Assembly (NCBI GenBank): GCA_023248545.1
Contig: JAHFEF010000006.1
Coordinates: 27,103-91,102, forward strand
Direction: 5' to 3'
DNA length: 64,000 nucleotides
From: Myxococcales bacterium
GTDB taxonomy: Bacteria > Myxococcota > UBA727 > JABDBI01
Part shown: positions 27,713-64,000 of the stretch, in pieces
Numbering within the stretch: position 1 is the first letter of the stretch
How the letters are laid out: each line of letters begins with the position of its first letter
Made by a program: the position numbers and the translations under genes
The notes under the pieces: model-generated
The model's input: only the letters and a program-made list of their open reading frames with translations
Database searches by the model: none
Told to the model about the DNA's origin: nothing

Positions 27713-27717
27713 CCAAG

Positions 27718-28112: not shown

Positions 28113-28115
28113 AAT

Positions 28116-28153: not shown

Positions 28154-28483
28154 CTTAAAAATCCTGAATCGCTCGAGCAATACGTCCTCAAGATTTCGCC
28201 GCCCGTCAAATACTGCCAGAATGGACACCTTGCTTTGCGTAATTTTGTAAATAATCCGCCAGGGTGACTCAATTACCTCCCTGACCTGAATAATCCCAAT
28301 GTCATTTAATTCCGGAACTATGCGACCTCGTTCTGGAAATCGCCAAAGATCTGATGCTCGTTTTTCAATTTTATCCAAAATTGTCAACGCTACATCCAAA
28401 TTATTTTCGGCAATGTAGTTAATAAGCTCGCGCAAATCATTCCTACCAGTCACGGTCCATTCTACCTGATAGTCATGGCTCAT
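28151..28483 (-). CDS. ParE/RelE-superfamily toxin
   Basis: 110 residues with the ParE/RelE plan: WTVTGRNDLRELINYIAENN at the start, then LWRFPERGRIVPEL, then SPWRIIYKI and VFDGRRN near the end. Members poison gyrase or cut mRNA on the ribosome; this one looks complete. The start overlaps the end of the upstream Phd-type antitoxin gene by 11 bases, so the pair is a coupled toxin-antitoxin module. It sits between rnpB and the secretion genes. Confidence 0.85.
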   Translation of the reverse strand: MSHDYQVEWTVTGRNDLRELINYIAENNLDVALTILDKIEKRASDLWRFPERGRIVPELNDIGIIQVREVIESPWRIIYKITQSKVSILAVFDGRRNLEDVLLERFRIFK

Positions 28484-30062: not shown

Positions 30063-31400
30063 CTAGCCTAGGTCCTCGGCATCTGAGAACAGCTCAGCCA
30101 ACTGAGAAATCGTTTTGTCAAAAGGCGCATTCTCATCAATTCGCTGTTTTAAAAAACTCTCGATGGCCTCATTCTTATCGATTGCATAGTCGACTTTTGG
30201 ATCAGTCCCATAGCTGTAGGCCCCGAGCAAAATCAAATCGCGATTTTTCTCATAATTAGCCATGGTTTCGCGCATATAGCCAGCCGATTTCTGATGTTCC
30301 GGCGTGACAATATTCACCATCACACGGCTTAAAGATGGCAAAATATCGATGGCTGGCCAGTGATTTCTCTCACCCAAAGTGCGATTTAAGACAATGTGAC
30401 CATCTAAAATACTGCGCATTTCGTCGGCAATCGGTTCTTCCATGTCACCAGCTTGTACCAAAACTGTGTAGATCGCCGTGATCGAGCCCTTGTCATTGTT
30501 ACCAGTACGTTCCATGAGTCTTGGAATAAGCGCAAACACGCTCGGTGGAAAGCCTTGGCGGGCCGGCGGTTCACCGAGAGCCAAGCCTACTTCACGCTGC
30601 GCTCTGGCAAATCGAGTCGCGCTGTCCATCATGAACAACACGTCGCGGCCCTGATCTCGAAACCATTCGGCAATTGCCGTCGCCACGTAGCAGCTCTTTA
30701 AGCGCACCAACGGCGGCGTATCGGACGTCGCAGCGACCAATACCGTGCGCTTGAGACCCTCTTCGCCCAGAGACTCCCGAATAAAATCTAAAACTTCACG
30801 GCCTCGCTCACCGACCAAACAAACCACGATGATTTCGGCTTCGGTGTTACGGGCAATTTGACCCATCAAAGTCGATTTACCAACACCTGAACCGGCAAAC
30901 AAACCCATACGTTGTCCCCGACCCATCGTGATTAGACCATCAATGGCACGCATGCCCATCGCGATAGGCCTATCAACGGGCTGGCGCGTATAGGGATTCG
31001 GGCTTTCTCGGTGAACTGACCAATCGATCAGGCCGTCGATTTGGCTTAAGGGGACACCATCGTCCATGGGTTCACCGACGCCGTTGAGCACTCGACCCAA
31101 CAGCCCATAGCCGCATTTGATCCCAAATGGCTTTCCCGTGGGGATGACTTCAGAGTCAGGCCCAATGCCTTCGAGTTCACCCAGCGGCATGAGGTACACG
31201 ATGCCTTCTTGAAAACCGACCACTTCGGTTTTGATCAATGGGCTCTCTTCGCTTTGGGTGGTCACATAGCAAACATCGCCGACCCGCGAATTGGGAACAG
31301 AGGCTTTGATAATTAAACTGGTGGATTCAAGTACTTTGCCACGCATTCTGAAGGGCTGGACGTTTCGGATCTGCTCAATCACGTGGTCGATGTTCTGCAT
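30063..31400 (-). CDS. sctN: Type III secretion ATPase (SctN/FliI family)
   Basis: 445 residues. The P-loop is GLFAGSGVGKST; further blocks are VGERGREVLDFI, ATSDTPPLVRLKS, IAEWFRDQGRDVLFMMDSATRFARAQREVGLA and ERNHWPAIDILPSLSRVM, cited as separate short motifs. The family includes flagellar FliI and injectisome SctN. The neighbours sctO and sctP, and the absence of flagellar genes in the window, favour an injectisome. The enzyme unfolds and feeds substrates into the export gate at the inner membrane. It starts the minus-strand unit, 49 bases from the divergent mutase gene. Confidence 0.85.
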   Translation of the reverse strand: MQNIDHVIEQIRNVQPFRMRGKVLESTSLIIKASVPNSRVGDVCYVTTQSEESPLIKTEVVGFQEGIVYLMPLGELEGIGPDSEVIPTGKPFGIKCGYGLLGRVLNGVGEPMDDGVPLSQIDGLIDWSVHRESPNPYTRQPVDRPIAMGMRAIDGLITMGRGQRMGLFAGSGVGKSTLMGQIARNTEAEIIVVCLVGERGREVLDFIRESLGEEGLKRTVLVAATSDTPPLVRLKSCYVATAIAEWFRDQGRDVLFMMDSATRFARAQREVGLALGEPPARQGFPPSVFALIPRLMERTGNNDKGSITAIYTVLVQAGDMEEPIADEMRSILDGHIVLNRTLGERNHWPAIDILPSLSRVMVNIVTPEHQKSAGYMRETMANYEKNRDLILLGAYSYGTDPKVDYAIDKNEAIESFLKQRIDENAPFDKTISQLAELFSDAEDLG

Positions 31401-34963: not shown

Positions 34964-35788
34964 TTATTTCGGCATCAAAGCAATCACACACCCACCACCG
35001 CCTGCGCCGGTGAGTTTAGCTCCTAAAGCGCCGTTCTGGATGGCCTGCGCACACAAAGCGTCTAACTCATCTGTCGAAACGCCTAATTTCTTGAGCAGCG
35101 CATGATTTTCTGTCATCAGCCTGCCAATTTCTGGCAAGTCGCCCTGTTCTATCGCTCGACGCATGTCAAAAGTGAGCTGCGAGATCGCCTCGAAAATCTG
35201 CATAGTACCCGAGGGGTTTTGATCGTAGCGATGTCTTACTGCTTGAACAGCTGCACGCGTGCCTGCATGAGGGCTTGCCATCGAAATTTCGAAATTCAAC
35301 GGCCGTTTGGGAATTATTTTTTCAGCATGGCCCCGTTGAAACCAAATTAAGCCTTCTTGGGCAATCACCGTGTGGTCTACTCCTGAGGGGTTGCCGTGGA
35401 AGATTTTTTCGAGCTCCAAAGCCATACCCGCAATTTGCTCCGAGCTTCTGGATTCGCCCAAAAAATCTAAGACAGCTCGGATAAGCCCAACAGATAACGC
35501 CGCAGAGCTCCCCAAGCCACAGCCCCCCGGAATATCGCTGTCAATTTGAAACTCCAGTTCGCGCACACGCGGGCCTAATAGCTCGGTCAACTTTGGCAAG
35601 ACCTCGACAAATAGCCCTGCTGATTTATGCTCAGGGTCTATTTGGGGGTTTAAAAAAACAAGACCCGGTTTGTCACTCAGCCGAGCATTAATACGAACTT
35701 CCAAATCAATCGTCATGGCAATGGCGGGGTAACCATAGACCACGGCATGTTCGCCCGCCAAAATAATCTTGCCAAAAGCTTTCGCCAT
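34964..35788 (-). CDS. mvk: Mevalonate kinase
   Basis: 274 residues of the GHMP kinase family. KIILAGEHAVVYGYPAIA is the N-terminal signature, GGCGLGSSAALS the phosphate loop, and KLTGAGGGGCVI the C-terminal motif. It phosphorylates mevalonate in the mevalonate route to isoprenoids. The start overlaps the stop of the HMG-CoA reductase gene by one base (TAATG). Later pathway genes (phosphomevalonate kinase, decarboxylase) are not in the window. Confidence 0.88.
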   Translation of the reverse strand: MAKAFGKIILAGEHAVVYGYPAIAMTIDLEVRINARLSDKPGLVFLNPQIDPEHKSAGLFVEVLPKLTELLGPRVRELEFQIDSDIPGGCGLGSSAALSVGLIRAVLDFLGESRSSEQIAGMALELEKIFHGNPSGVDHTVIAQEGLIWFQRGHAEKIIPKRPLNFEISMASPHAGTRAAVQAVRHRYDQNPSGTMQIFEAISQLTFDMRRAIEQGDLPEIGRLMTENHALLKKLGVSTDELDALCAQAIQNGALGAKLTGAGGGGCVIALMPK

Positions 35789-36921
35789 TAAAACTGCTTT
35801 CTAGTATGCAACGCCATGTGACCCTTTTGAATCCCTTCGGCAGCCAGCGCCCGCATGGCGCCTAGATTTTGAGCCAAACCTACAGAGGCTACAAGACCTG
35901 CAAGCGCCTGTGCACTCTTTCCAAACTCACCTAATAACTCCAAGCAAGCTCTAACCGTCGGATGTGTCTGAGTGATTCCCCCAACAACCCCCAGGGCCAA
36001 TGGCAATTCGATTGAAGCCAATAAACAATCGTGCTCGTCATCTAAAGCATAGTGCGTCAGAGGCCCATAGTGTCCGGATTTCTGGGCAGCATACGCATGC
36101 GCGCCGGCTTCGATGGCTCTCCAATCATTGCCAGTTGCGATCGTAACAGCGCCAACGCCATTCATGATGCCTTTATTGTGGGTGCACGCTCGATAGGGAT
36201 CCAGACAAGCAAACTCATAACCCGCCAGCATTCTTTGAGCCACCCGTCGACCCGTGTCATGTATTTTATCCATGGCCAAGGCCGCATAGGGGATTTCACA
36301 TCGTGAGCGCGCTAAGCGCTGATCACTTAAGTTAGATAAAATCTTGAAACCAGCGATAGCACCTGTAAGTGCCTCGATTTTGGGCGCCAAGCCTTCCATG
36401 ATGGTGTTAATCAGATTCGCACCCATGGCATCTTGACAATTAATGCGTACTTCAAGCACAGCCATCTTGGGCGACAGGTTCTTGAGACGAATATTTTTGC
36501 AGCCACCACCGCGGGCTTTGAGACCTGGGCAGTAAGTATTAGCAAATTCTAAAAGCTCCACTTCATGTTCGATAATCGCCTGGTTCGCACGATCCCAGTC
36601 CGGTGAATCTAATAACTGGATCTGACCCATCATCATAGGCTCATCGACCTGTGTTTGAAAACCACCCCGAAGCGCTGCCAATTTAGCCATGTGACTTGCA
36701 GCCGCAATCACAGACGGCTCTTCAATGGCCATGGGCACCCAAACGGGCTGGTTATCAACGACAAAATGACAGGCCACTCCAACAGGAAGAGCCAGCGTCG
36801 TGACTAGATTTTCGACCATTTGGTCTGCTGTCTCTAAATCCAAACCCTCCGAAAAAGATAATCCTACTCGGGCTTGGCGTTCTGAGACAGACAGCTCATA
36901 AAATTGTGAAAAATCAAGCAT
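35788..36921 (-). CDS. mvaA: Hydroxymethylglutaryl-CoA reductase, class II type
   Basis: About 377 residues. Catalytic Glu in [13 protein letters not shown], Lys in [13 protein letters not shown], Asp in [11 protein letters not shown], and the final His in [10 protein letters not shown] match class II reductases. Class I enzymes have a membrane anchor, and there is none here. It makes mevalonate from HMG-CoA (or the reverse). The protein is shorter than the usual class II length of about 430. The ATG 36921 overlaps the IMPDH stop by eight bases; a TTG two codons upstream is less likely. Confidence 0.88.
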
Positions 36922-37969
36922 GGGCAAGTTCCACGTCGTGCACGTGACTCTCGGTCAAACCAGCCTGTGTGATTTGAACAAACTTGGCATTCTGGCGCAG
37001 CTCATCCAAATTTGCCGCACCCAAATAACCCATGCCAGATCTAAGACCTCCGGTGAGCTGATACAAAATTGGCGCCAATTCGCCTCGATAAACTGTTCGA
37101 CCCTCGATGCCTTCTGGGACCAATTTTTTGCCTTCAGAGACATCTGCCTGAGCATAACGATCTTTGCTACCTTGCGACATGGCAGCCACACTGCCCATGC
37201 CTCGATAGTATTTATAAGATTTCCCAGCATGCTCGATCACTTCGCCTGGAGATTCTTCAGTGCCACTTAAGAGAGAACCGAGCATCACAGCGTCCGCTCC
37301 AGCTGCAAGTGCTTTTGTAATATCACCCGAGTGCTGAATACCCCCATCAGCAATCAAACCAATCCCCAACGGTCGTGTAATAGCCGCGACGTCTAAGACA
37401 GCGGTTAATTGGGGAACACCCACGCCAGCAACAATTCGAGTCGTACAGATAGACCCAGGCCCGATGCCTACTTTCACGACGTCCGCGCCTGCTTCAATCA
37501 ACGCTTGAGCCGCTTGCTGCGTAGCGATATTACCCGCGATGACCGTCATGTTTGGAAACCAATCTTTGAGCTTTTTGACACCCTCCAACACCCCAAAAGA
37601 ATGCCCATGGGCTGTGTCGAGCACCAATGCATCAATACCAACTTCAACCAATGCTCTGGCCCTCGCTTCGAGATCTTGGCCAGGCCCCAAAGCCGCCGCG
37701 CATAAACACTTGGCCTGCTTAACCAAGCGCACCTCTTCGACTTGCCGTTCTATGGACAGATTTTTGTGAATTACGCCGAGGCCGCCGTTTTCGGCCATGG
37801 CAATGGCCATGCGACTTTCTGTCACCGTGTCCATGGCGGCGGACAAGATGGGCGTCTTCAATGAAATCTTTGGCCCAAGACGGGTTTGTATATCTACCTG
37901 CGAGGGCAAAATTTCCGAGTAAGCCGGCACCAGCAAAACATCGTTATAAGTTAGCGCTTGAGGGAACAT
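36914..37969 (-). CDS. guaB: IMP dehydrogenase lacking the CBS pair
   Basis: 351 residues. Catalytic Cys in [11 protein letters not shown], the IMP-binding [11 protein letters not shown], the YYRGMGS loop and the mobile flap GSKDRYAQ are all in place, so it should make XMP for GMP synthesis. The usual tandem CBS regulatory domains are absent. [18 protein letters not shown] runs directly into [12 protein letters not shown], where they would be inserted. It is the first gene of a unit with HMG-CoA reductase and mevalonate kinase, coupled by overlaps. Confidence 0.9.
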
Positions 37970-42502: not shown

Positions 42503-43429
42503 TTACCAGTGCTGGCTAAAAGACGACCCACCAAATGAAATCGCTGACCGGCTTGGCGGTGCTGCAGCGTCCTCAGGCATATGAAATGGGTCGAGGAACC
42601 TAGGAATGAGGCGGTTTACAGCCAAATGTTGTCGTAGCCGTCTTAATTCACTTTCCCGCTCTGCTGGATTATTGAGCATGATTATAGCTCTAGTGTCCTG
42701 AAGCGAAACTCTAAAGCCTGAACCCTCCCACCCCAAATAACGCATTGCCTCGCCGGCGGTTGCGAATGTAACGATGACCCGATTGTCAGATCTGGTCTCT
42801 AGGTCGGATAAAACGATGCTTCTTATTGAAGTTTGAACGATGCTAGAGCTCTCCATTCCGCCATTTTCAAGTCGTCGCTGCACAAAATATCGATTTGTAT
42901 CAGCTTGAGAAGATATAGCAAACAGTTCATCCAACGTTAGCATTCTGCCTGTTGTATTCTGCGCAGGAGGTGTCGCAACTGCTTGTGCGGATTGAGGAGA
43001 CCGAATTTGCGTTTCCCAAAAAGCAAGTAGGCTAGCGCAAAAACCATATCTACGAAATTCAGCCATTTCTCTCGCTGTTCGTTGAGTGACTGGGTCACGA
43101 GCAAGCAGGTTTGCGCCATACAAACGCAAGTCACTTAACATCTCGTGAATACTAACAGCCAATACCAGAGCGGGCGTACCATTTCTATCCACCGCATTGG
43201 GATTTGCATTTGCCATCAGCAAATGCCGAACGATTGAGACATGTTCTTGTGGGATTGCCAAAATGAGCGCTTGGTCCAAATCATCCTGAGCGAGTTGGAT
43301 ATGAGGGTCAGCAAGGAGTTGCAGAACTTTGGTTTCATTTCCAGCCCTAACAGCGTCTAGTATGGCGTTCGAACTGGCCATGAATGCGAATAGAAACACA
43401 AAACAAAAAAGAGTCGTGTAGTTTTTCAT
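42503..43429 (-). CDS. Secreted ankyrin-repeat-like protein
   Basis: 309 residues. Signal peptide MKNYTTLFCFVFLFAFMASSNA, then about three ankyrin-type repeats at residues 20-110 (ILDAVRAGNETKVLQLLAD, ALILAIPQEHVSIVRHLLMANANPNAVD and TPALVLAVSIHEMLSDLRLYGANL). The last two thirds are not recognisable, with a beta-rich region (RVIVTFATAGEAMRYLGW) and an Arg-rich helix. Exported ankyrin proteins are common in host-associated bacteria. The start at 43429 puts the signal peptide first; the upstream extension comes from repeat DNA. The ribosome site is weak. Confidence 0.65.
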   Translation of the reverse strand: MKNYTTLFCFVFLFAFMASSNAILDAVRAGNETKVLQLLADPHIQLAQDDLDQALILAIPQEHVSIVRHLLMANANPNAVDRNGTPALVLAVSIHEMLSDLRLYGANLLARDPVTQRTAREMAEFRRYGFCASLLAFWETQIRSPQSAQAVATPPAQNTTGRMLTLDELFAISSQADTNRYFVQRRLENGGMESSSIVQTSIRSIVLSDLETRSDNRVIVTFATAGEAMRYLGWEGSGFRVSLQDTRAIIMLNNPAERESELRRLRQHLAVNRLIPRFLDPFHMPEDAAAPPSRSAISFGGSSFSQHW

Positions 43430-43497
43430 AACGACGTCAATTCCAAAAAAAATTATTTTACGCAATAGATTCACCCCAACAAATAGACCACCTTCAT

Positions 43498-43570
43498 AAA
43501 AAAGGTGAAAAGGTGTCGAGGTGTCGAAAAGGTAAAAGGTAAAAGGTGTCATAAAAGGTATCAGGCCTGA
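43498..43570. repeat. Degenerate AAAAGGT(GTC) repeat cluster
   Basis: Within about 70 bases the unit AAAAGGT or AAAAGGTGTC occurs six times with small changes, ending in TATCAGGCCTGACA. It looks derived from the GGTGTC hairpins seen at 41923 and 42399. It lies in the upstream region of the ankyrin gene. An ACATGT-TT-ACATGT inverted repeat follows at about 43570-43583. Confidence 0.55.
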
Positions 43571-43579
43571 CATGTTTAC

Positions 43580-43690
43580 ATGTTGCAAGCTCTGGTATCT
43601 AGGAGCCAACTGAGAATCCATTTTGACAGTGCCAACGATCCTGACAAATCAGGTGCCTTCTACATGCTGGTTCCAACGGAAGTGTTTTGA
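43580..43690 (+). other. Possible gene remnant or 36-codon frame
   Basis: A short plus-strand frame from ATG 43580 gives 36 residues ending LRIHFDSANDPDKSGAFYML then VPTEVF. It has the look of real coding sequence but no ribosome site and no family that I know. It fills the space between the repeat cluster and the AbiE promoter and is best treated as debris. Confidence 0.2.
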
Positions 43691-49156: not shown

Positions 49157-51340
49157 ATGTCTTTCGATCTTCAATCTGCCCTAGAGCATATCAGCCATCA
49201 GTTGCCTGCTCAGGGGCCGATCAAAGATTTTATTCATCATAATACGCTGCATGCGTTTCAGCATCTGCCATTTCATGAGGCACTCGCCGAGGCGAGTGCC
49301 TTTTATGGCGCCGCTTCCTACATGCCCATGGGGTTTTATGGCCAATCAGGCTTGTCCCCCATAGCCTTGGCGAAGGGGGGAGTGGAGCACCGTGAAAACA
49401 TCGACACCGCCGTCGCACCGATCTTAATTCGACTCACGTCTGGATTTTTAGATCAAGGCATCGCTGTCTCGCCGTTTCCAGAGGCAGATTGCGGTTTTTT
49501 CGAAGCACTCAACAAACTCGCTCACAATTCTTGGACACCGATTGCTTATTATGCAAACAAAAAACGCACACGGGAATGGTTTCGAAAATCTCCAGAACGG
49601 GTCTGCGAAGAAATCTTAAAACAACTGGTTGTTCAGGAAGACCTCTACGAACAATATATCACTGATACTCTGATGGCCCACCGCGGCTGGGCAGGTATGG
49701 TGAATGTTTTAGAACACCGCCCGACGGCGTTGTTGGTCCCAAGATCGATCAGGCTGGTCGAGTTCTTGGCATTAAAGCTCATATTAGAATCGGAGTATCT
49801 TCTGTTTTCTGGTTCTCCACCACCTGTTCCATCTTTGGTTCGACCATCGCAGGTCAGCCCAATTAAAAATATTCACGAAGCTTATGAGAATGCCTATTAT
49901 CACGAGATACTGTCCAAATTTAAAAACATAAAACCGGCCCAACAAGCCAAGCCTCATATTCAAGCTGTGTTTTGCATTGATGATCGAGAGTGTTCTTTTA
50001 GGCGGCACTTAGAACAGGCCGATCCTCATATTGAAACTTTTGCCTGTGCAGGCTTTTTTGGAATTGATTTTTTCTTTCAATCCATCAACGACGCGTCGCC
50101 AAAAAAACTCGCCCCAGCGCCCGTACAGCCCAAACACTTGGTCTTTGAACGTCCCCACGCGTTACATATTACCGAGTTTGAGAACCAGAGAAAAAAGACC
50201 CAAAGTAAAGCGCTTTGGCTGACTTCATGGCTTGGATTTGTTGCGAAAAATACGCTAAAAATCGACGTTCGGACCGAATTAGAACTCTATCGAGAAGACG
50301 ATTTACTCAATCAAGACACGAAACTCTATCATGGGTTTACATATGACGAGATGGCCGAGCGCGTATTCTCGGTCTTAAACAGCATGGGCCTCAATCACGA
50401 TTTTGCGCCGATAATTCTGATGATTGCGCATGGCTCAAGCAGCTTAAATAACCCGCATTTTGCAGCTTATGATTGCGGAGCCTGTTCTGGAAATCCAGGC
50501 GCTCCGAACGCTCGAGCTTTTGCAGCCATGGCAAATCTAGGCCCCGTGCGTGAGCGGGTCTACAAACTGGGTATTTCGATACCCAGCGGCACCCGGTTTA
50601 TGGGTGGATTTCATGACACTTGTACAGATTCTATCGATTTTTTTGATACCGAAGATCTGACTGCTGAACATGGCACTATTTTTTCAAATTTTCTCAATAC
50701 GCTAGAAGCCACCAAAAAACTCAATGCCAAAGAGCGTTGCATCAGATTTGCCGTGGTCGACCCAGATATCACCCCAGAGCAAGCACTCGCAGAAGTCCAG
50801 CATCGAGCAACTGTCCTATTTGAACCTCGTCCTGAGCTAGGCCATGTGAATAACGCCCTATGTATTGTTGGGCGCCGACAGCTTACCAAAAATCTATTTT
50901 TTGATCGCCGCGCTTTCTTAAATTCTTACGACCCAACACAAGATCCAACGGGCCAAATTCTAAACTCAATTTTAAACGCTGTTGTCCCTGTTTGCGGGGG
51001 GATTAATCTAGAATATTATTTCTCTCGCGTAGATAATGCGGTTTATGGCTGCGGCACGAAGCTCTCTCACAATGTCTGTTCTCTGTTAGGCGTATATAAC
51101 GGCATTGACGATGATCTTCGAACCGGACTGCCCGTCCAAATGATCGAAATCCATGAACCCATCAGGCTGTTAATCATCATCGAGCAAACACCCGAAATAG
51201 TTTTGAACGTGATTCAAAATAACAAACCTATTTTTGAATGGATCGAGAACGAGTGGGTCAAATTGGCCTGTGTTGCTCCCGATTCGAATAACATCACTTT
51301 CTATCAACCGACCCGAGGCTTCGTGGATTACACACTATGA
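49157..51340 (+). CDS. dabA: DabA inorganic-carbon pump subunit (DUF2309, beta-carbonic-anhydrase-like)
   Basis: 727 residues. Predicted zinc ligands sit as in characterised DabA: Cys273 and Asp275 in FCIDDREC, His425 in IAHGSSS and Cys440 in DCGACSG. The His-to-Cys spacing of 15 equals that of DabA2 from Halothiobacillus. DabA converts CO2 to bicarbonate at the inner face of the membrane, driven by the DabB cation channel. A palindromic element lies in the coding sequence at 49355-49381 (SPIALAKGG), and a strong hairpin with TTTT lies at 49279-49304. Two bases separate it from the SulP gene. Confidence 0.9.
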   Translation: MSFDLQSALEHISHQLPAQGPIKDFIHHNTLHAFQHLPFHEALAEASAFYGAASYMPMGFYGQSGLSPIALAKGGVEHRENIDTAVAPILIRLTSGFLDQGIAVSPFPEADCGFFEALNKLAHNSWTPIAYYANKKRTREWFRKSPERVCEEILKQLVVQEDLYEQYITDTLMAHRGWAGMVNVLEHRPTALLVPRSIRLVEFLALKLILESEYLLFSGSPPPVPSLVRPSQVSPIKNIHEAYENAYYHEILSKFKNIKPAQQAKPHIQAVFCIDDRECSFRRHLEQADPHIETFACAGFFGIDFFFQSINDASPKKLAPAPVQPKHLVFERPHALHITEFENQRKKTQSKALWLTSWLGFVAKNTLKIDVRTELELYREDDLLNQDTKLYHGFTYDEMAERVFSVLNSMGLNHDFAPIILMIAHGSSSLNNPHFAAYDCGACSGNPGAPNARAFAAMANLGPVRERVYKLGISIPSGTRFMGGFHDTCTDSIDFFDTEDLTAEHGTIFSNFLNTLEATKKLNAKERCIRFAVVDPDITPEQALAEVQHRATVLFEPRPELGHVNNALCIVGRRQLTKNLFFDRRAFLNSYDPTQDPTGQILNSILNAVVPVCGGINLEYYFSRVDNAVYGCGTKLSHNVCSLLGVYNGIDDDLRTGLPVQMIEIHEPIRLLIIIEQTPEIVLNVIQNNKPIFEWIENEWVKLACVAPDSNNITFYQPTRGFVDYTL
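49279..49304 (+). other. Perfect 10-bp-stem hairpin plus TTTT inside dabA
   Basis: GGCACTCGCC and GGCGAGTGCC are separated by GA and followed by TTTT. It has the shape of an intrinsic terminator but lies 123 bases into dabA. It may attenuate dabAB or simply be a coincidence of Ala-rich coding. Confidence 0.5.
49355..49381 (-). repeat. Palindromic element, copy inside dabA
   Basis: Stem TCCCCC/GGGGGA around a 14-base loop. Read on the minus strand the loop is TTCGCCAAGGCTAT, close to TACGCCAAGGCTTC in rnpB. The insert adds LSPIALAKGG to a variable part of the protein without breaking the frame. Confidence 0.55.
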
Positions 51341-53160
51341 TTCACTGCTTTCTACTCCTCACGCTCTTTATACCCGCTTTGTCCTCTATTATTTTAGCCA
51401 CCAGCGCCCCGAACGAACACGCTATTTCTCGATTCGCCCAAACAAGCTTTCTATTGTACTTAGTCACTGCGCTTGTGACGTCGGCATTTTGGCTCTTTCA
51501 AGATAGCCAGACTTATTTATACTCAATTACGTCTCTGCTGACTTTCAAACTTGACCTACCCGGCTTGGTCTACCTCTGCACAACTGCGTTCATCACAAAT
51601 ATTATTTTGTTTTACTGCCGGCGGTATTTACATCGAGATCCAGGCTATCAGCGATTTTTTATGATTATCTCGATGTTCGTTGCAGGCCTGACGGTCGTTA
51701 TCTTTGCAGGCAACTTCGAGCTTATTTTTGCTGGCTGGGAAGTGGTTGGCCTATCATCTTATTTGCTGATTGGTTTTTACTGGCATAGGCCACAAGCCGC
51801 ACTGAACGCCAGTCGCGCATATTATATCTATCGTATTTGCGATCTAGGTCTCTTGGCAGCGGCGTTTATTTCGCACCTAGAGCCCAGCTTCAACCAACAA
51901 TGGGCGTTAAGCCTCATGATTTTGCTGGCTGTGATTGGCAAGTCAGCGCAATTCCCCGTTTCGTACTGGCTACCCCGAGCGATGGAAGGACCAACACCCT
52001 CGAGTGCGATCTTCTATGGCGCGCTTTCGATCCATGCCGGTGTATTTTTGCTCATGAGAACTTTTGATACTTGGTTTTATACTCCTGGGTTTTCTTGGGT
52101 CGTGGGCAGTTTGGGGCTCATCACAGCATTATTGGCGACGCTGTTTGGACGCGTCCAGGCCAATATCAAAGGCCAAATTGGCTACGCGTCCATTACCCAG
52201 GTAGGCATCATGTTGATCGAACTGGCTTGCGGATTTCCGACGCTGGCACTGATTCATATGACAGGCAACGCTTGCTTGCGGTGTTTCCAATTATTGGTCT
52301 CACCCTCTGTGGTCGCGCAGCAATTACAAATCCACGGGGCATTGCTGGGCGAGAGAGTTAAACCCATATTCGCAATTCATGACCGTCTCAACCATCGAAT
52401 TCGCGATACGCTGTATTTAATTGCCATCAATGAAGCCTATCTCCAAAGCTTTCTGAAAGCCTTTTTGGTCCGACCTGTGAATGCTTTGGCAAACCGGGTG
52501 AATCAAATTGAACGTCGCGCGATGAGTGCGTGGGTTATTGCACCGGCATTGCTAGGTTCTGCTTTTCTTCTAGCGCCGCTGTCTTATCTGTTTTTGGGCC
52601 TCAGCCTGTTTGCAGCATTTACAGCCTTAGGCGAGAGCAAGTCGCCATTTCGGGTCTTCAACGCAGCGACCTTAAGCAATCTATTTGTAGCAAGCGCCAT
52701 TTGGTTTGAGCACCGGGACACGGCATTTTTCAGCCTGCTTTATATGGCTGGTCTTGGTGTGGCGTGGCTGCTCGCGCTGGATGCCCTACGGGTAATCTCT
52801 AAAAAACAAGTATTTGAATCCGTCATACACTTTTCTGGGCTATTTGGGCAATATCCCTTGGCAAGCGTCGCCGTTCTCGTCGGGATACTCGGCATCATTG
52901 GGTTTCCGTTGTCGAGCACGTTTTGGTTCGAGGATCACTTGTTGGAGCATGCGTTGGCATCGGGTTGGATATTTGTCGCTGTGTTTGCGGGTGTATTTGC
53001 ACTGAATGGCATCACATTAATTCGGCTTTATTCACACTTGTTTTGGGGAAAACGAGAGCATGAACCTGCTGATACTTCGCATGATTTTTCGAGCGCAGGG
53101 GTATTCGCTCGAATTGCTGTGTTCATGATTGCAAACGGAGTTCAACTCTGGCTCTTGTAA
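51337..53160 (+). CDS. dabB: DabB proton-conducting membrane subunit (NuoL-like)
   Basis: 607 residues, a NuoL/MrpA-type antiporter-like membrane protein with about 14 helices. Key charged residues are in the AGWEVVGLSSYLLIGFYW and IGKSAQFPVSYWLPRAMEGPTPSSA blocks, given here as short motifs. In DAB systems DabB supplies the cation gradient for DabA. The start overlaps the dabA stop by four bases. It ends 37 bases before tRNA-Ser. Confidence 0.88.
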   Translation: MIHCFLLLTLFIPALSSIILATSAPNEHAISRFAQTSFLLYLVTALVTSAFWLFQDSQTYLYSITSLLTFKLDLPGLVYLCTTAFITNIILFYCRRYLHRDPGYQRFFMIISMFVAGLTVVIFAGNFELIFAGWEVVGLSSYLLIGFYWHRPQAALNASRAYYIYRICDLGLLAAAFISHLEPSFNQQWALSLMILLAVIGKSAQFPVSYWLPRAMEGPTPSSAIFYGALSIHAGVFLLMRTFDTWFYTPGFSWVVGSLGLITALLATLFGRVQANIKGQIGYASITQVGIMLIELACGFPTLALIHMTGNACLRCFQLLVSPSVVAQQLQIHGALLGERVKPIFAIHDRLNHRIRDTLYLIAINEAYLQSFLKAFLVRPVNALANRVNQIERRAMSAWVIAPALLGSAFLLAPLSYLFLGLSLFAAFTALGESKSPFRVFNAATLSNLFVASAIWFEHRDTAFFSLLYMAGLGVAWLLALDALRVISKKQVFESVIHFSGLFGQYPLASVAVLVGILGIIGFPLSSTFWFEDHLLEHALASGWIFVAVFAGVFALNGITLIRLYSHLFWGKREHEPADTSHDFSSAGVFARIAVFMIANGVQLWLL

Positions 53161-57672: not shown

Positions 57673-58230
57673 ATGAATAAAATAAATATGTTTATTTTTG
57701 TTTGTACATTCAGTTGTTTTGTTACTGCTCAACCACCTCAACCCTCGTTCAGCTCGATAAGTAACGCCACAAATGTGACGACTCATCACACGATTATTCC
57801 AAGTAGTGTGACAGCGGAAGCAAACACTGTCGTGTGCAGTAATACGGGTGTTTCCACCGTGAATTCGCCCACTCTAAAACCCCCATTAGGCATACAGGCC
57901 GCTGCACTCTTCTGTCAAATACTTCCTTATGGAATGGTATTTAAAGAAGCTAAAGAAGCTGATGCTAAAGGACAATATAGAACTGCAATAGTAACGTATG
58001 CTTACACAGTACTTCCAAATGTTTTTTGGGGACTTTATGCATACTACTCAAATGACATTTACGTTGCTGCCACTACTTGGGGGCTTGCTTCATATGCCAC
58101 AACCCTGATCCTGTGGAAATATCAACACTGGTTGGGGTTGAAATGGCGAAACGACGGAACGACGCCAGACACCGGATACCGCTTGTTTGTGCCCGCCGCC
58201 AATCCCCTTGGTAATGTCAACTCTGTTTGA
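57673..58230 (+). CDS. Secreted or membrane protein, unknown
   Basis: 185 residues. Signal peptide MNKINMFIFVCTFSCFVTA, a Ser/Thr/Asn-rich linker, then a hydrophobic C-terminal half with two or three membrane helices (LGIQAAALFCQILPYG, VLPNVFWGLYAYY, AATTWGLASYATTLIL). A promoter and an AGAGG site are visible. No family recognised; the build is like that of the 3.2-kb and 42-kb genes. Confidence 0.6.
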   Translation: MNKINMFIFVCTFSCFVTAQPPQPSFSSISNATNVTTHHTIIPSSVTAEANTVVCSNTGVSTVNSPTLKPPLGIQAAALFCQILPYGMVFKEAKEADAKGQYRTAIVTYAYTVLPNVFWGLYAYYSNDIYVAATTWGLASYATTLILWKYQHWLGLKWRNDGTTPDTGYRLFVPAANPLGNVNSV

Positions 58231-58465
58231 ATAAAATGGTTGGGTCCAGAAACCTGTCCAGCGAAGAGCGGCTTGTTCCCATCTTTTCAGCCATCTTACT
58301 CTTGGTCAGGACATTTTCCTTCATGGCTTGCTCGATTTGCCAAGCAAGAACTCGCTTGATCGCTACTGCTTCAACCTCAACAAGAGTTCCATCTTGCAGT
58401 AAAAGATCGGGGCGTCTTTTCGGTTTTCTTAATCAAAGCATGCAGCAAGACCATATCCCCAGCAG
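58217..58465 (-). pseudogene. Fused remnant of a HigBA-type module
   Basis: On the minus strand the reading MVLLHALIKKTEKTPRS matches the C-terminal end of a Gp49-like toxin. After a frame change come the antitoxin-type blocks VEVEAVAIKRVLAWQIEQAM and KMAEKMGTSRSSLDRFLDP. The antitoxin helix-turn-helix ends early at 58217. The toxin N-terminus and the gene junction are missing, so a deletion joined the two genes. The plus-strand frame over the same bases is not a gene. Confidence 0.75.
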
Positions 58466-58698
58466 CGGTTTGTTGTGTCGATCGACTCAGTCACGCTTTT
58501 AGAAAAATTCAAATTTCGATGGCTTTTTAAAACGAGCTTGTTTTAGCATGGACTCTTCTTGCAGATGCATGGTGCATTTGCAAGCAAGCCGCCTTCTCCG
58601 CCACAGCCAAGTTTTGGAGAAGACGGCAGCCACTTAGGCCGAAAAACAAATTAGTTTCTCGGCCTCAACTTGTCAAACCCTGACAGGAGCGAGAACTG
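58460..58698 (+). promoter_or_regulatory. Conserved structured leader of the winged-helix gene, copy A
   Basis: 239 bases, nearly identical to 62734-62974. Three stems: CTTCTCC/GGAGAAG (58593-58622), AGGCCGA/TCGGCCT (58636-58665) and TGTCA/TGACA (58671-58685), the last just before the GGAGCGAG ribosome site. Differences between copies fall mostly between stems 1 and 2. It may be a regulatory RNA leader or part of a mobile unit. Confidence 0.5.
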
Positions 58699-59142
58699 AT
58701 GTCTGAACGAGCTCAAAAGATTTTAACCTGGTTACAGAATCAAAACAGCACAGAATTACCCATTCGCCAAGCCACACTCGCTGAAGAATTTCAGTGCTCG
58801 CGCAGAACCATTGGCAGAGCACTCAAAGAATTAAAAGAAGCCGGACTGCTCGTCGATTTGAACCAGCGTCATCAAAACAGGTGCAAGATCTATCGGGTGG
58901 AAGTTCCGCAGAAAGAGGGTCTGACGCCTGAAGCTCAACGACAATGGGATTTCTTCGGACACATATTTAAAGCGGTCTTTAAGCGCGTCGATGAGGAAAA
59001 ATTGAAAGCGTATTACGCCAAAGCAACATGGAACTTAGAGGGCATCACAGACATCCATCAGCTGTATAGAAAAACGTTTGATGGGATGTATGCGCTCCCA
59101 GAGCTTGAGCCTCATCTGCCTTTATGGAAGAGGAAAGCGCTG
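58460..59142 (+). repeat. Duplicated cassette, copy A (leader plus winged-helix gene)
   Basis: 683 bases almost identical to 62734-63420. It begins CAGCAGCGGTTTGTTG in both copies and ends near AAGAGGAAASCGCTGT. A second homologous block (59225-59375 against 63848-64000) follows in both, so the cassette includes the secreted Cys protein gene. About 4.27 kb separate the copies. Confidence 0.85.
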
Positions 59143-59148
59143 TCATAA
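58699..59148 (+). CDS. Winged-helix DNA-binding protein, copy A
   Basis: 149 residues. The N-terminal winged helix is clear: IRQATLAEEFQCSRRTIGRALKELKEAGLL as short blocks, with a following wing around NRCKIYRVEV. The C-terminal 80 residues (FGHIFKAVFK, then YYAKATWNLEGI) are helical and unknown. It has the look of a mobile-element regulator or replication-type protein. GGAGCGAG precedes the ATG. A near-identical copy lies at 62975. Confidence 0.75.
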   Translation: MSERAQKILTWLQNQNSTELPIRQATLAEEFQCSRRTIGRALKELKEAGLLVDLNQRHQNRCKIYRVEVPQKEGLTPEAQRQWDFFGHIFKAVFKRVDEEKLKAYYAKATWNLEGITDIHQLYRKTFDGMYALPELEPHLPLWKRKALS

Positions 59149-59274
59149 CGCTATCCCAAGAATCTTTCAGCTATGCAATTTTTTTCGACTCAGGAAAATA
59201 GCACCCGCATGAAAGGTGAAAGAAGAAAGGGGTCCGCTATCGGCTTTAAACAGGCCATTGAAAAAGGCAGGAGA

Positions 59275-59685
59275 CTAATTCGACCGATTAGTGCCAGAAG
59301 ATGCATAGACCTGCTCGGACACTTTATTTACACACTCCCCAAGACGGTAATAAAATTCCCGATTGATTTCAATCCCGGTCGGTTTCTTCCTCGTCAATAA
59401 ATCATCGGAACCCCTGAGACCTTCGATCACACATTGTTTCTCTATTCTCTGGCAGGAAGCTTTGTCGCGTATCATCCCCCAGGGTAGAATATCAAAAGTC
59501 ATCACACAGCGCTGAGCCTTGAAATCACATTGAAGGGTTTTGAAAATATAATCAGAATCACTTTCACACCAAGTATCTCCACATAAATCATCGATGTAAC
59601 GCAAGAGGTCCTTTTCATCTTGCTCCAACAACGACTGGCAAAACAGGCTTGGCGCAAATAGAAAAATAATAATTGCAAACTTCAC
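59275..59685 (-). CDS. Small secreted Cys-containing protein
   Basis: 136 residues from GTG 59685: signal peptide KFAIIIFLFAPSLFC, then a soluble domain with seven or so cysteines (DDLCGDTWCESD, LQCDFKAQRC, SCQRIEKQC). It is probably periplasmic or exported and disulfide-bonded. An upstream TTG at 59724 is a weaker start choice. A second copy of its 3' end lies at the right edge of the window (63900-64000). No family recognised. Confidence 0.6.
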   Translation of the reverse strand: MKFAIIIFLFAPSLFCQSLLEQDEKDLLRYIDDLCGDTWCESDSDYIFKTLQCDFKAQRCVMTFDILPWGMIRDKASCQRIEKQCVIEGLRGSDDLLTRKKPTGIEINREFYYRLGECVNKVSEQVYASSGTNRSN

Positions 59686-59849
59686 AGCACCAGAGCAACC
59701 ATCGAGCCGTCCTACCCATGCCAATTGAATCTAAAACTCGATTGCCGTGGTCAATAGGCCCTCCAGGCTCGCAACCTTGAGCTTCCACTCCACATCGCCA
59801 TTTCCGTTTCGTTTCGCCGTTTGGATGACTAGAACCATATAGATTCTAA
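59686..59849. other. Non-coding stretch before the phosphatase fragment
   Basis: No frame with recognisable product. Several stop codons occur in all frames near 59815-59850. It may be the decayed 5' part of the phosphatase gene that follows. Confidence 0.3.
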
Positions 59850-60068: not shown

Positions 60069-62024
60069 ATGAAATCTCAGTTGTTTTTTGTTCTATTCTC
60101 AATCAATTTAATTGCAGGCAGCTCGGCTGTTTTGGCTCGACGACCTGTTCAAATTGCTCAAGATATTGCCTGTGCGATTTCGAATACTTGGAATTCTTTC
60201 ACGAAGCCAGTTCAACGTGAATTGGTTCGAGAAGACCAGGTAGAAGATCCGTTTCTGAGATCTTGGTTGGGTCAATCACTCAGCAAAGAAAAAGCGCTTA
60301 AAAAACTCGAAGAGCTTGAAATGCTCATGGAGCGAGATGGTAGATTATCGCGCCGTGAAATAGCTCTTTTGGAGTACTTGAGGTACTATTTTTCGAGTCA
60401 TTCTTCAGGTGCTTATCCAGCGGAGTCTATTAAAGCAGCTGGTGTTTCATTGCCCGGCGGCATTCTTCAAGCACCATCGAGAACGGCACAAGAATCTGCA
60501 GAGCCAGCAGAACAAGCACAGGCTGGCTCATCGGGCCAACCTGTTCAAGGGCCTGTGTTCAAGGTACTTCACAAGGTCTTGAAGAATCTAAGTAATGAAG
60601 AGTTTGAAAGTCTACTGAATGTTTTTGATCCGGGAAGCTATCGTCCACAACATCAAATGACTCCTCAAGAAAATCAAATTCATAGGATGCAAGCCTTTGT
60701 CATATTTGATGTTTGTGAACAAGTATTGAGTGAGATATTGAATAAAAATTTTCAGATGAATGAAACTTATTGCACCGAAGGAGTTTCTGCCAGCTCAGCT
60801 TGGGTTGCTCTGATGTATGTAAACCGCTTCTTGGTAAGAAATCAGAACTTTCAATTAACTGAACAAGGTTTGAATCAACTTTTTTCGGTTGCTTTATTGA
60901 CAGCAGCCAAGATTCAAGAGTTTTCTTACCCTGACAGTAAAAAATTTATATGGCTATCTCAGAACATAGAAGATTTAGAAAAGAAATTTTATGAAGGAAT
61001 TGGTTTTGATTTCCGGGTAGATCTTCGAGAGACCGAAGAACTTCTCAAAAAGATTCGTCAAGAAGAGAGTCCTATGGAATATGTGTCAGATAAGAAGACT
61101 GAACTCAGAAATTTCAATGGAACAGAATATTCGAAAGGTAAGCGTTTAGGCTTAGGAACCTTCTCTAATGTCTGTATTGCTCAAGACTCAAAAAGTGAAA
61201 AATATTATGCTGTGAAATCTATTACAGCTCAAAGAGACCCAAGAAGTATTGATGGAAGTTTTGCTGTTGAAATTATGGTTCTGCTCAATGGGCATCCATC
61301 GATCGTTTCTCTTCAAGGAGTTTCTTTAAATAGTCTTTATCCAACATTGTTTTTGGAATACTGCTCTCAAGGAACATTAAAGGACATTTTTCGTCACAGA
61401 GAATTAACAGATCAAGAAATTAAAAAATGGATGCGACAGTTGCTGGAAGGCCTGGAACACCTCCATAAATTTGGATTCATGCATCGCGATATTAAACCAG
61501 AGAACTTGCTGGTGAATGAAGCAGGAGATCTTAAGATTGCTGATTTTGGTTCCGCCCGAGAGATCTTTAATGTAGTCGAGCAAAAACCACATCCTGTGGT
61601 AACAAGATGGTATCGAGCACCTGAACTATTGATGCTAGGAACTCGATATGGTCCTGAAATCGATGTGTGGAGTGCAGGTTGTATCTTCGCAGAAATGGTT
61701 CTTAGAAAGTCACTTTTCCATGGTGAAGATGACTCTAAAACTCTATTGATGATTTTTTGTTTATTGGGTGTGCCAACTTTGAAAAACTTTCCACTGCATC
61801 GAGAAACATATATGTTTTACAAATATTTAGCTGATTTAGAAAATATGTCTGCCACTGTTCCACGAAGTGAAATGACGAAAAGTTTTCAAACAACATGTCA
61901 AACCATTTTGAATAAATTAGGCCAAGATGGCTATAACTTATTAATGAGACTGTTGGTTTTGGAGCCATCGAGACGGATTACTGCAGCTTTGGCGTTGCAG
62001 GATCCTTATTTTCAAGGCCCTTAG
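60069..62024 (+). CDS. Exported single-chain cyclin-CDK-like protein kinase
   Basis: 651 residues. A signal peptide (MKSQLFFVLFSINLIAGSSAVLA) is followed by a helical region and an Ala/Glu/Gln linker (about 137-165). A cyclin-box-like domain lies at about 200-320, with ALMYVNRFLVRNQNF, FSVALLTAAKIQEF and FYEGIGFDFRV matching the Pho80/cyclin core. A CMGC-type kinase fills about 355-650. Its motifs are glycine loop GLGTF (361-365), Lys383, HRD 472-474, DFG 492-494, VVTRWYRAPE (APE 517-519) and DVWSAGCIFAEM. All catalytic residues are present. The CDK T-loop threonine position is Pro, so activation by a CAK is not expected. The GTG one codon upstream is an alternative start. Confidence 0.85.
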   Translation: MKSQLFFVLFSINLIAGSSAVLARRPVQIAQDIACAISNTWNSFTKPVQRELVREDQVEDPFLRSWLGQSLSKEKALKKLEELEMLMERDGRLSRREIALLEYLRYYFSSHSSGAYPAESIKAAGVSLPGGILQAPSRTAQESAEPAEQAQAGSSGQPVQGPVFKVLHKVLKNLSNEEFESLLNVFDPGSYRPQHQMTPQENQIHRMQAFVIFDVCEQVLSEILNKNFQMNETYCTEGVSASSAWVALMYVNRFLVRNQNFQLTEQGLNQLFSVALLTAAKIQEFSYPDSKKFIWLSQNIEDLEKKFYEGIGFDFRVDLRETEELLKKIRQEESPMEYVSDKKTELRNFNGTEYSKGKRLGLGTFSNVCIAQDSKSEKYYAVKSITAQRDPRSIDGSFAVEIMVLLNGHPSIVSLQGVSLNSLYPTLFLEYCSQGTLKDIFRHRELTDQEIKKWMRQLLEGLEHLHKFGFMHRDIKPENLLVNEAGDLKIADFGSAREIFNVVEQKPHPVVTRWYRAPELLMLGTRYGPEIDVWSAGCIFAEMVLRKSLFHGEDDSKTLLMIFCLLGVPTLKNFPLHRETYMFYKYLADLENMSATVPRSEMTKSFQTTCQTILNKLGQDGYNLLMRLLVLEPSRRITAALALQDPYFQGP

Positions 62025-62162: not shown

Positions 62163-62675
62163 ATGTCAAAAATGTTATCGACAATATTAATTTTTATGCT
62201 TTCTTTCGCGGCGACCTCGGTTATTGCTAATTCGAACTCAATAAATGAGGCTGATGAACTAGCCTGGGTTTTCTATGGTAATTTTAATAGAGTTTTTGAC
62301 TATGGTACACCACTAAATCGAGAGTTCAAAATTAAAGGCCTAGACGGATATATTCAAGAAATCAATTGTTTTGGCTACAGGGATGGAAATTTTCAGATTC
62401 GAATTAGATTTTTCAGAGAAAAACTTTCAGTGTTTTACAAACAACACCCGTCTTTTAAAAGTGACATAAAATATGCCGGTGAAATTGTTGATTATTTCGA
62501 GAATACTTACTGGGCATTTCCAGAACGATATACTTATTTTCTGAAGGTTTTTTATGATCACAATTTGATCCCTGGCTTTGTCTTAGATCGTATTTTCAAA
62601 GAAACAGGACTGGCAGATTTTCGTTTGAACGCGCCGACAAGCCTTTCGTTGCTCAAGAACGCGTCTGAATTTTAA
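62163..62675 (+). CDS. Small secreted protein, unknown
   Basis: 170 residues: signal peptide MSKMLSTILIFMLSFAATSVIA, then a soluble domain rich in aromatic and charged residues (WVFYGNFNRVFDYG, NCFGYRDGNFQIRIRFF). No cysteine pattern or membrane segment. It lies just after the cyclin-kinase gene with its own promoter. No family recognised; a co-secreted partner or separate effector is possible. Confidence 0.6.
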   Translation: MSKMLSTILIFMLSFAATSVIANSNSINEADELAWVFYGNFNRVFDYGTPLNREFKIKGLDGYIQEINCFGYRDGNFQIRIRFFREKLSVFYKQHPSFKSDIKYAGEIVDYFENTYWAFPERYTYFLKVFYDHNLIPGFVLDRIFKETGLADFRLNAPTSLSLLKNASEF

Positions 62676-62680: not shown

Positions 62681-62758
62681 CTACACCAGTCTCCCCACAG
62701 TCGCCCGGTGAACCCCAAAGATGCGAGCAGCCTCAGCAGCGGTTTGTTGTGTCGATCG
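62681..62758 (-). pseudogene. C-terminal remnant of a serine resolvase/invertase
   Basis: On the minus strand, RSTQQTAAEAARIFGVHRAT then VGRLV and TAG match the helix-turn-helix tail of Hin/Tn3-type site-specific recombinases. Nothing of the catalytic domain is left. It overlaps the left edge of duplicated cassette copy B by about 25 bases, so a recombinase may have lain next to the cassette. Confidence 0.65.
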
Positions 62759-63420
62759 ACTCAGTCACGCTTTTAGAAAAATTCAAATTTCGATGGCTTT
62801 TTAAAACGAGCTTGTTTTAGCATGGACTCTTCTTGCAGATGCATGGTGCGTTTGCAAGCAAGCCGCCTTCTCCGCCACAGCCAAGTTTTGGAGAAGAACG
62901 GCGACCCATAAAGGCCGAAAAACAAATTAGTTTCTCGGCCTCAACTTGTCAAACCCTGACAGGAGCGAGAACTGATGTCTGAAAGAACTTACAAAATTTT
63001 AACCTGGTTACAGAATCAAAACAGCACAGAATTACCCATTCGCCAAGCCACACTGGCCGAGCAGTTCGGATGCTCGCGCAGAACCATTGGCAGAGCACTC
63101 AAAGAATTAAAAGAAGCCGGACTGCTCGTCGATTTGAACCAGCGTCATCAAAACAGGTGCAAGATCTATCGGGTGGAAGTTCCGCAGAAAGAGGGTCTGA
63201 CGCCTGAAGCTCAACGACAATGGGATTTCTTCGGACACATATTTAAAGCGGTCTTTAAGCACGTCGATGAGGAAAAATTGAAAGCGTATTACGCCAAAGC
63301 AACATGGAACTTAGAGGGTATCACCGATATCCATCAGCTGTATAGAAAAACGTTTGATGGGATGTATGCGCTTCCAGAGCTTGAACCTCATCTGCCCTTA
63401 TGGAAGAGGAAACCGCTGTT
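62734..63420 (+). repeat. Duplicated cassette, copy B
   Basis: 687 bases almost identical to 58460-59142, including the three-stem leader (62734-62974) and the winged-helix gene. In this copy a BrnT/BrnA remnant separates the gene from the second homologous block starting at 63848. Confidence 0.85.
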
Positions 63421-63460: not shown

Positions 63461-63625
63461 ATGAAGATTGATGGTTTCGATTGGGACTCTGCGAACTCAA
63501 TGAAGAACGAAAATAAGCATGGGATTTCCCGTGAGTCGATCGAACTGTTTTTTAAGGCGAGTCCTCGGATTGCGAAGGAGGTTTTAAAATATGAGCAAGC
63601 GTTTACCAAAAATGAAAACAGATGA
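63461..63625 (+). pseudogene. Truncated BrnT-type toxin
   Basis: 54 residues. IDGFDWDSANSMKNENKHGIS matches the N-terminus of BrnT ribonuclease toxins (FDWDxxKxxxNxxKHG). The core with the catalytic residues is deleted, and the rest, EVLKYEQAFTKNENR, is not toxin sequence. It overlaps the antitoxin start, preserving the toxin-first layout. Confidence 0.7.
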
Positions 63626-63845
63626 GGCTGTAAAAAACCTCTTATCTGGGGATATTAGCGATTATATTTCGTCACAGAATTTTTCGGTAGTATCTTTTGA
63701 ATTTGAAGCCAAAGACAAGAGTATTACTCTGCGTGTTTCGGAGCATTTGCTCAAAAAGATTCGGAACTTAGCAAAAAAACGTCATACGCCTTATCAGAAG
63801 GTGATTAGACAAGCGATTGAAAAGTTTATTCTTGAGGCAGCATGA
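63591..63845 (+). CDS. BrnA-like (CopG-type) antitoxin
   Basis: 84 residues. Blocks typical of BrnA antitoxins are DISDYISSQNFSVVSFEF, then DKSITLRVSEHLLKKIRNLAK, then TPYQKVIRQAIEKFI, a ribbon-helix-helix domain. GAAGGAGG precedes the ATG. The partner toxin is truncated, so it is an orphan antitoxin. The duplicated block with the secreted Cys protein starts right after its stop codon. Confidence 0.8.
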   Translation: MSKRLPKMKTDEAVKNLLSGDISDYISSQNFSVVSFEFEAKDKSITLRVSEHLLKKIRNLAKKRHTPYQKVIRQAIEKFILEAA

Positions 63846-63899
63846 AAGAAAGGGGTCCGCTATCGGCTTTATAAACAGACCATTGAAAAAGGCAGGAGA

Positions 63900-64000
63900 C
63901 TAATTCGACCGATTAGTGCCAGAAGATGCATAGACCTGCTCGGACACTTTATTTACACACTCCCCAAGACGGTAATAAAATTCCCGATTGATTTCAATCC
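63900..64000 (-). CDS. Partial second copy of the secreted Cys protein (C-terminus)
   Basis: The last 101 bases of the window match 59275-59375 nearly base for base, including the stop codon CTA (complement TAG) at 63900-63902. They would encode the C-terminal 32 residues (EINREFYYRLGECVNK and so on) of a second copy of the 59.3-kb protein, which continues beyond the window. Confidence 0.75.
   Translation of the reverse strand, partial: IEINREFYYRLGECVNKVSEQVYASSGTNRSN

Follow-up and report, generated by a model that had tools for sequence, protein, structure and literature searches.

A bacterial gene that joins a cyclin-like region to a CDK-like kinase behind a predicted export signal

We analysed a 64,000-nucleotide stretch of DNA (the window) from a Myxococcales bacterium, on contig JAHFEF010000006.1 of assembly GCA_023248545.1. 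Near its right end lies an open reading frame (ORF) that an initial annotation had described as an exported protein with a cyclin and a cyclin-dependent kinase (CDK) in one chain. The ORF is present at 60069 to 62024, on the plus strand, as a single frame of 651 codons beginning with ATG; an in-frame GTG at 60066 is a possible alternative start. The product matches Pfam families Cyclin_N and Pkinase, and has a hydrophobic N-terminus. Hence, the description holds: this is a bacterial protein that looks exported and combines a cyclin-like stretch with a CDK-like kinase. The fusion is real and rare. Its parts are listed below, each with the evidence used.

60069 to 62024, plus strand: cyclin-like/CDK-like fusion gene, 651 amino acids (ORF; Pfam Pkinase and Cyclin_N; homologue of the same architecture in genome G006)
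60069 to 60137, plus strand: predicted Sec signal peptide, residues 1–23 (hydrophobic core; cleavage by eye)
60249 to 60401, plus strand: helical hairpin, residues 61–111 (model confidence; same helix pair in the G006 homologue)
60663 to 61001, plus strand: cyclin-box-like region, residues 199–311 (Cyclin_N match; low-confidence model helices)
60783 to 60968, plus strand: Cyclin_N match, residues 239–300 (Pfam)
61128 to 62012, plus strand: CDK-like protein kinase domain, residues 354–648 (Pfam Pkinase)
61251 to 61286, plus strand: C-helix, residues 395–406, with DGSFAVE at the PSTAIRE site (alignments)
61542 to 61625, plus strand: activation segment, DFG492–494 to APE517–519, with Pro507 at the Thr160 position (alignments)

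The kinase domain is the clearest part of the protein. The Pkinase match has an E-value of 3.9e-59, and alignments show a complete set of catalytic residues: Lys383, Glu401, Asp474 of the HRD motif, Asn479 and DFG492–494 with Asp492. The initial annotation's kinase domain, with all catalytic motifs at about residues 355–650, was thus confirmed. CDKs are closest to this domain both by sequence and by fold, and Foldseek matches of the kinase model include the kinase chains of CDK5-p25 and Pho85-Pcl10. Two canonical residues are replaced: Val400 stands for Arg50 and Pro507 for Thr/Ser160 of the T-loop. Hence, we refer to the domain as CDK-like and not as a CDK.

The replacements were set against 50 CMGC kinases, some of them environmental sequences, selected by hand, with full coverage and moderate length as the main criteria, from 120 listed proteins of 0.55 to 1.75 times the query length, a range that excludes ordinary CDKs of 300 amino acids. 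Position 160 is Thr in 45 of these kinases and Ser in 5. Arg50 and Arg126 are each found in 50/50 and Arg150 in 48/50. In CDK2, these three arginines grip the phosphothreonine. The window protein has Val400, Arg473 and Arg497 at the three positions; within DGSFAVE, Glu401 is retained beside Val400. In the G006 relative, the Thr160, Arg50, Arg126 and Arg150 positions are occupied by Val, Val, Cys and Glu; the Val at Arg50 is that of the pairwise register (a larger alignment is out of register at this point, giving Leu, and Ser in place of Glu). In both proteins the Thr160 phosphosite and one or all of the clamp arginines are gone, and the catalytic residues are kept. From these sequences, the kinase appears built to function without T-loop phosphorylation.

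These observations bear on the earlier suggestion that the chain could be always active, with Pro at the T-loop Thr and Phe at the Tyr15 position. Both residues were seen in the alignments, as Pro507 and Phe365; Thr14 is retained as Thr364. The site for the CDK-activating kinase (CAK) is absent, and the always-on reading is strengthened because clamp arginine is lost as well. Escape from Wee1 fared less well: 11 of the 50 CMGC kinases share the Phe, so that Phe365 is a weak sign of it. The model is less sure in the activation segment, where residues 501–510 have a mean confidence of 65.

For the cyclin-like region, placed by the initial annotation at about residues 200–320, the profile search with the whole Pfam library supported the proposal. 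Cyclin_N matches residues 239–300 at 24.4 bits (E 2.6e-5), above its gathering cut-off of 23; with residues 178–347 as the sole query the score is 26.0 bits (E 8.2e-6). No Pho80-type cyclin family was listed for this region by the Pfam scans. A search of all six frames of this small genome (1.78 Mb in 41 contigs, 92.8% complete) gave no other Cyclin_N match at E <= 1. Eight of 14 control genomes give a match at that threshold, and none of the 14 gives one above the cut-off. Because the match is unique in its own genome and no control exceeds the cut-off, we consider it to be above chance. Among eight genomes of the family, the cut-off is exceeded only in the window's own. Cyclin identity of the N-terminal part is probable. 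The label 'cyclin-like', which we use for the window protein and its G006 relative together, was chosen because the N-terminal part of the relative gives no Cyclin_N match.

Sequence searches of the Protein Data Bank (PDB) added little. The best match of residues 178–347 is cyclin A2, over residues 244–299, at an E-value of 0.92, which is not significant. The alignment places Lys281 of the window protein (in AAKIQE) on the Lys of cyclin SKFEE, which we take to be a conserved CDK contact. Residues 1–344 gave no PDB match at E <= 5, and a profile built from the cyclin-like regions of both proteins gave none at E <= 10. Helices are present in the region in both structure models, at low predicted local distance difference test (pLDDT) values. 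They span residues 199–225, 241–257, 265–286, 291–311 and 319–330 of the window protein and residues 178–198, 200–212, 218–224, 227–243, 251–268, 274–279, 281–288, 292–295 and 298–315 of the relative. In the window protein, a linker of about 40 residues joins the cyclin-like part to the kinase. The fold search used the kinase part (residues 347–651) as query, and its list was filled by kinases, so it is uninformative on cyclin chains.

The hairpin at residues 61–111 is modelled more confidently than the cyclin region, with pLDDT block means of 69–91; an equivalent helix pair lies at residues 63–99 of the relative (block means 83–94). A 457-residue kinase elsewhere in the genome (L001; contig C21, 1327 to 2700, minus strand), which has the best Pkinase score in that genome, shows a hydrophobic start and a possible hairpin resembling the one described here. 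The pairwise link between the two hairpins is weak (E 0.069). A shared targeting hairpin was considered and rejected: a profile search at E <= 0.1 returned only its three source genes.

The G006 relative (L013) comes from another genus of the same family. It has 630 amino acids; the corresponding NCBI record (P0002, 620 amino acids) is named 'MAG: protein kinase [Deltaproteobacteria bacterium]', MAG standing for metagenome-assembled genome. Hydrophobic start, helical hairpin, helical region and CDK-like kinase follow one another as in the window protein. We read the two sequences as sharing one architecture, the cyclin part having probably diverged faster.

The fusion is thinly distributed. 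An initial search covered 58 genomes (up to 21 candidates scored per genome), of which two matched at E <= 1e-20: the window's own and G006. With a two-sequence profile, the full-length fusion was found in 2 of 8 family genomes, where the remaining matches cover kinase domains only, and in 2 of 16 order genomes at E <= 1e-25 (up to 76 candidates each). At least 2 of 195 phylum genomes carry it at E <= 1e-30, a lower bound since up to six candidates were scored per genome. Residues 1–345 of either fusion protein, searched against 5.8 billion proteins, matched nothing but themselves; for the window protein, the 7997 candidates with most shared words were scored. On viral contigs, 331 pattern matches yielded no relatives. 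Among the best 80 of at least 521 relatives on GTDB r220 contigs, 79 have matches that start no earlier than query residue 319. The other, L079 (query residues 180–567), was rejected as a further fusion: the match joins two adjacent kinase ORFs of a Chlamydiae MAG. That locus (87 to 4154) holds three consecutive kinase ORFs that have VTRWYRPPE motifs, next to a valyl-tRNA synthetase-like gene. Separately, two genomes of family f1 (G003 and G005) measure about 0.3 and 0.5 Mb and are rated 87% and 91% complete; the others measure 1.1–1.8 Mb, a strong genome reduction inside one family.

Kinase trees gave conflicting signals. In a 52-row tree, which lacks L001, L003 and P0099 owing to domain matches of insufficient length, a branch with 98/98 support places both fusion kinases alongside 11 bacterial rows, opposite 39 rows of CDK and mitogen-activated protein kinase (MAPK) type. 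A separate branch (90/92) parts the fusion kinases from eight bacterial kinases; the L079 kinases lie on its CDK side. A 27-row tree, made by dropping 25 rows, long branches among them, supports the fusion pair and places it apart from three bacterial kinases at 100/100. The branches thus conflict on CMGC placement (90/92 against 98/98; 100/100 against 87/88 for the CDK/MAPK split), and they are long. In the 27-row tree, a clade of CDK7 rows with the fusion pair is neither rejected (approximately unbiased test, p-AU 0.274) nor recovered.

The nearest sequences, among listed proteins of 0.55–1.75 times the query length, are eukaryotic CDK-type kinases. The G+C content at third codon positions (GC3) is 0.31 for the fusion gene and 0.33 for the ORF downstream. 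The values for IleRS, IF-2, ligase, NusA, DabA, secretion ATPase and major facilitator superfamily genes of the window are 0.46–0.56, with 0.49 for a helix-turn-helix (HTH) gene and 0.38 for a small ORF at 57673. Because the nearest sequences are eukaryotic and GC3 is low against 0.46–0.56, the fusion gene was probably acquired from outside. A eukaryotic donor seems likely. The immediate surroundings contain the following.

62163 to 62675, plus strand: 170-residue ORF with signal-like N-terminus and low GC3, a possible companion gene (ORF list, GC3)
58457 to 59375, plus strand: left copy of a 0.9-kb dispersed repeat with the HTH gene (repeat comparison)
62731 to 63419, plus strand: right copy of the 0.9-kb repeat, 96% over 687 bases (repeat comparison)

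The end part of the right copy recurs at 63846 to 64000, where the contig stops inside the repeat; the right copy also contains additional DNA that carries a CopG-type antitoxin gene (63591 to 63845). The genome holds 14 full or partial matches to the repeat, counting the query copy itself. Low GC3 and flanking repeat copies fit a late-acquired or mobile segment. Three small ORFs near the kinase gene (62163 to 62675, 57673 to 58230 and, on the minus strand, 59275 to 59724) have signal-like starts by eye, and none has a Pfam family above cut-off. A promoter scan found 6 sites with 6.3 expected, and a terminator scan found 8 with 3.2 expected. Elsewhere in the window, a DabA-type inorganic carbon transporter gene adjoins a proton-antiporter-like gene (49157 to 53160). 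An HMG-CoA reductase gene adjoins a GHMP kinase gene (34964 to 36927, minus strand), so a mevalonate route is probable. An ankyrin-repeat-like protein is encoded at 42503 to 43621 on the minus strand, with Ank 0.1 bit above cut-off.

The initial annotation proposed a Sec-type signal peptide and pointed to a secretion ATPase in the window. A hydrophobic core is present (best 12-residue Kyte–Doolittle mean 2.54, from residue 5), and the N-terminus of the G006 homologue is hydrophobic too; the signal peptide itself was judged by eye, with cleavage probably after VLA or SSA. The ATPase, at 30063 to 31400 on the minus strand, is real. It belongs to the FliI/SctN family, of type III or flagellar class, passes the FliI/YscN subfamily cut-off, and passes no FliI or SctN equivalog cut-off among the matches listed (25 of 35). 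The adjoining gene has a FliJ match below cut-off, and a FHIPEP gene seems to be split across two contig ends. The ATPase lies about 29 kb from the fusion gene and fits a Sec-signal protein poorly. As a rule, such proteins are not type III substrates; hence, we consider a type III route unlikely and set it aside.

A better candidate route lies on contig C25, at about 16,560 to 28,400. Here, a secretin with GspD N0, T2SSE, T2SSF, T2SSJ and T2SSM exceed their cut-offs, and are accompanied by two further N-methylated pseudopilin-like genes, a PilN match at the GspL position, a gene with sub-cut-off PDZ matches where GspC would be expected, and one gene that matches no family. Judged by its genes, this cluster is a type II system; farther along the contig there is another T2SSE gene. 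VirB4-type PF03135 has no match in the genome and has matches in 1 of the 14 control genomes. The genome contains 10 Pkinase matches, nine of them over cut-off and some PknB-like by eye. Inspection by eye indicates that further kinases of the genome may be exported too, among them one whose N-terminal part is possibly otubain-like, which suggests a set of exported eukaryotic-like kinases. Three proteins, L004 (contig C20, 733 to 2310), L022 and L027 (these two on contig C2 of G004), carry in this order a signal-like start, a domain with an N-D/N-C-F-F motif and a kinase domain. Otubain (Peptidase_C65) matches in two of the three are weak (E 0.0074 and 0.026) and below cut-off. They are possible exported deubiquitinase–kinase fusions, in tandem in G004.

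The initial annotation held that cyclin and CDK are separate partners in eukaryotes. This needs correction. PMC3019232 describes four CDK genes with C-terminal cyclin domains in P. infestans and relatives in further oomycetes, two ciliates and Theileria, each with Asp changed to Asn in subdomain VIb; its authors suggest that these natural CDK-cyclin fusions may be inactive. Like the window protein, they carry a CDK-type kinase and a cyclin in one chain. Conversely, they are eukaryotic, whereas in the window protein the domain order is reversed, with the cyclin-like part N-terminal, Asp474 is intact and a bacterial-type signal peptide comes first. PMC4411289 describes a Cdc13-Cdc2 fusion able to drive the fission yeast mitotic cycle, by name with the cyclin first, as here; unlike the window protein, it was engineered from a full yeast cyclin and Cdc2, and is not exported. 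No bacterial cyclin–CDK fusion was found in the literature searched, which covers few subscription journals, and the initial annotation likewise knew of none.

Separate chains and bacterial kinases offer further comparisons. CDK7/Kin28 proteins are among the nearest long proteins and share the VVTRWYRAPE motif with the window kinase. Phe likewise occupies the Tyr15 position in P0004 (named CDK7); unlike the window kinase, P0004 and P0018 retain Thr in the T-loop. Pho80/Pho85 and p25/CDK5 pair a kinase with a single-fold cyclin-like activator, and CDK5 is active without T-loop phosphorylation; these complexes are two eukaryotic chains, not one. Legionella LegK1 (NF043056) is a eukaryotic-like kinase of a host-associated bacterium, and the window match to this family reaches 38.4 bits, far below its cut-off of 550. 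By family name, LegK1 is a Dot/Icm type IV effector. We know of no cyclin part in bacterial effector kinases of this type.

Taken together, one chain presents a predicted export signal, a stretch matching a cyclin box and a CDK-like kinase with intact catalytic residues. The protein would leave the cell in two stages, Sec followed by the type II system. Its cyclin part would likely dock on the C-helix in cis, through the linker, and the kinase would act without CAK. A eukaryotic host, its cell cycle or its transcription machinery would be the target, host proteins being phosphorylated by an always-on cyclin-CDK. We favour this tentatively, at just under even confidence; that the protein acts as a host effector is reasoned inference. 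The sequences show the fusion itself, a CDK-like kinase, a second genus with this architecture, and both known members lacking the Thr160 site and the Arg50 clamp residue; docking, export and activity without CAK we infer. Several points weigh against the proposal. The Cyclin_N match is short (profile positions 47–105, 59 of 127) and only just above cut-off; PSTAIRE is lost; and the relative has HCD in place of HRD, Thr and Gln at the window's Lys281 and Glu304, and no Pfam match in its N-terminal part. Confidence in the cyclin region is low, with block means of 40–73 in the window protein and 35–78 in the relative, and predicted template modelling scores (pTM) for the full models are 0.55 and 0.58. 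The fusion kinases fall off from the CDK/MAPK-type rows at 98/98, and at 87/88 in the smaller tree, and the larger tree does not resolve the pair, which is monophyletic in 44% of its 200 bootstrap trees. The fusion is not a core function, given its presence in just 2 of 195 phylum and 2 of 8 family genomes. A Sec and type II substrate would have no accounted route to the host cytosol unless the bacterium were cytosolic or nuclear.

Several of these points serve the main rival, in which an exported CDK-like kinase follows helices that are a decayed cyclin box or an unrelated, non-activating domain, activation coming from the altered activation segment itself or a host cyclin. The relative keeps architecture and kinase yet has no detectable Cyclin_N, the models are low in confidence, the cyclin A2 match is not significant and the two-sequence profile finds nothing in the PDB. 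Nevertheless, Cyclin_N exceeds a curated cut-off and is the sole match in the genome, and chance placement of a cyclin-like stretch right before a CDK-like kinase is hard to accept; we think this rival doubtful, if a serious contender. The kinase might instead serve the bacterium itself, in periplasm, envelope or cytoplasm, like many bacterial Ser/Thr kinases, its CDK likeness being incidental or ancient. The other Pkinase matches of the genome, some PknB-like, and the 98/98 branch to bacterial rows would agree with this. However, both fusion proteins have signal-peptide-like starts, their nearest sequences are eukaryotic CDK-type kinases, they lie apart from eight bacterial kinases in one tree and three in the other, and to our knowledge the periplasm is not known to contain ATP. 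We judge a role of this kind unlikely. Misbinned eukaryotic DNA or a chimeric contig might be suspected from the low GC3 of the gene and its downstream ORF, and from a contig that stops 2 kb downstream in a repeat. Conversely, the contig is 91 kb long with bacterial genes to the left, the genome's own dispersed repeat lies on both sides, the frame is unbroken with a bacterial-type signal peptide by eye, and the architecture recurs in a separate assembly from a different genus. An artefact is very improbable, and was set aside.

Bacteria are known to perturb the host cell cycle via its regulators; Cif, for example, makes CDK inhibitors accumulate (PMC2654923). If our proposal is true, a bacterium that supplies both cyclin and CDK itself, as a single chain, would use a strategy unlike acting on host regulators. 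It is plausible, though somewhat less likely than not, that a host-associated bacterium exports a self-sufficient, always-on cyclin-CDK, its activation-loop switch removed, that imposes CDK activity on a eukaryotic host regardless of host cyclins, CAK and checkpoints. Such a protein would parallel, in nature, the single-chain cyclin-CDK engineered for studies of minimal cell-cycle control. The two genera that lack the phosphothreonine site and its clamp also illustrate, in nature, how a CDK-like enzyme might dispense with its activating kinase.
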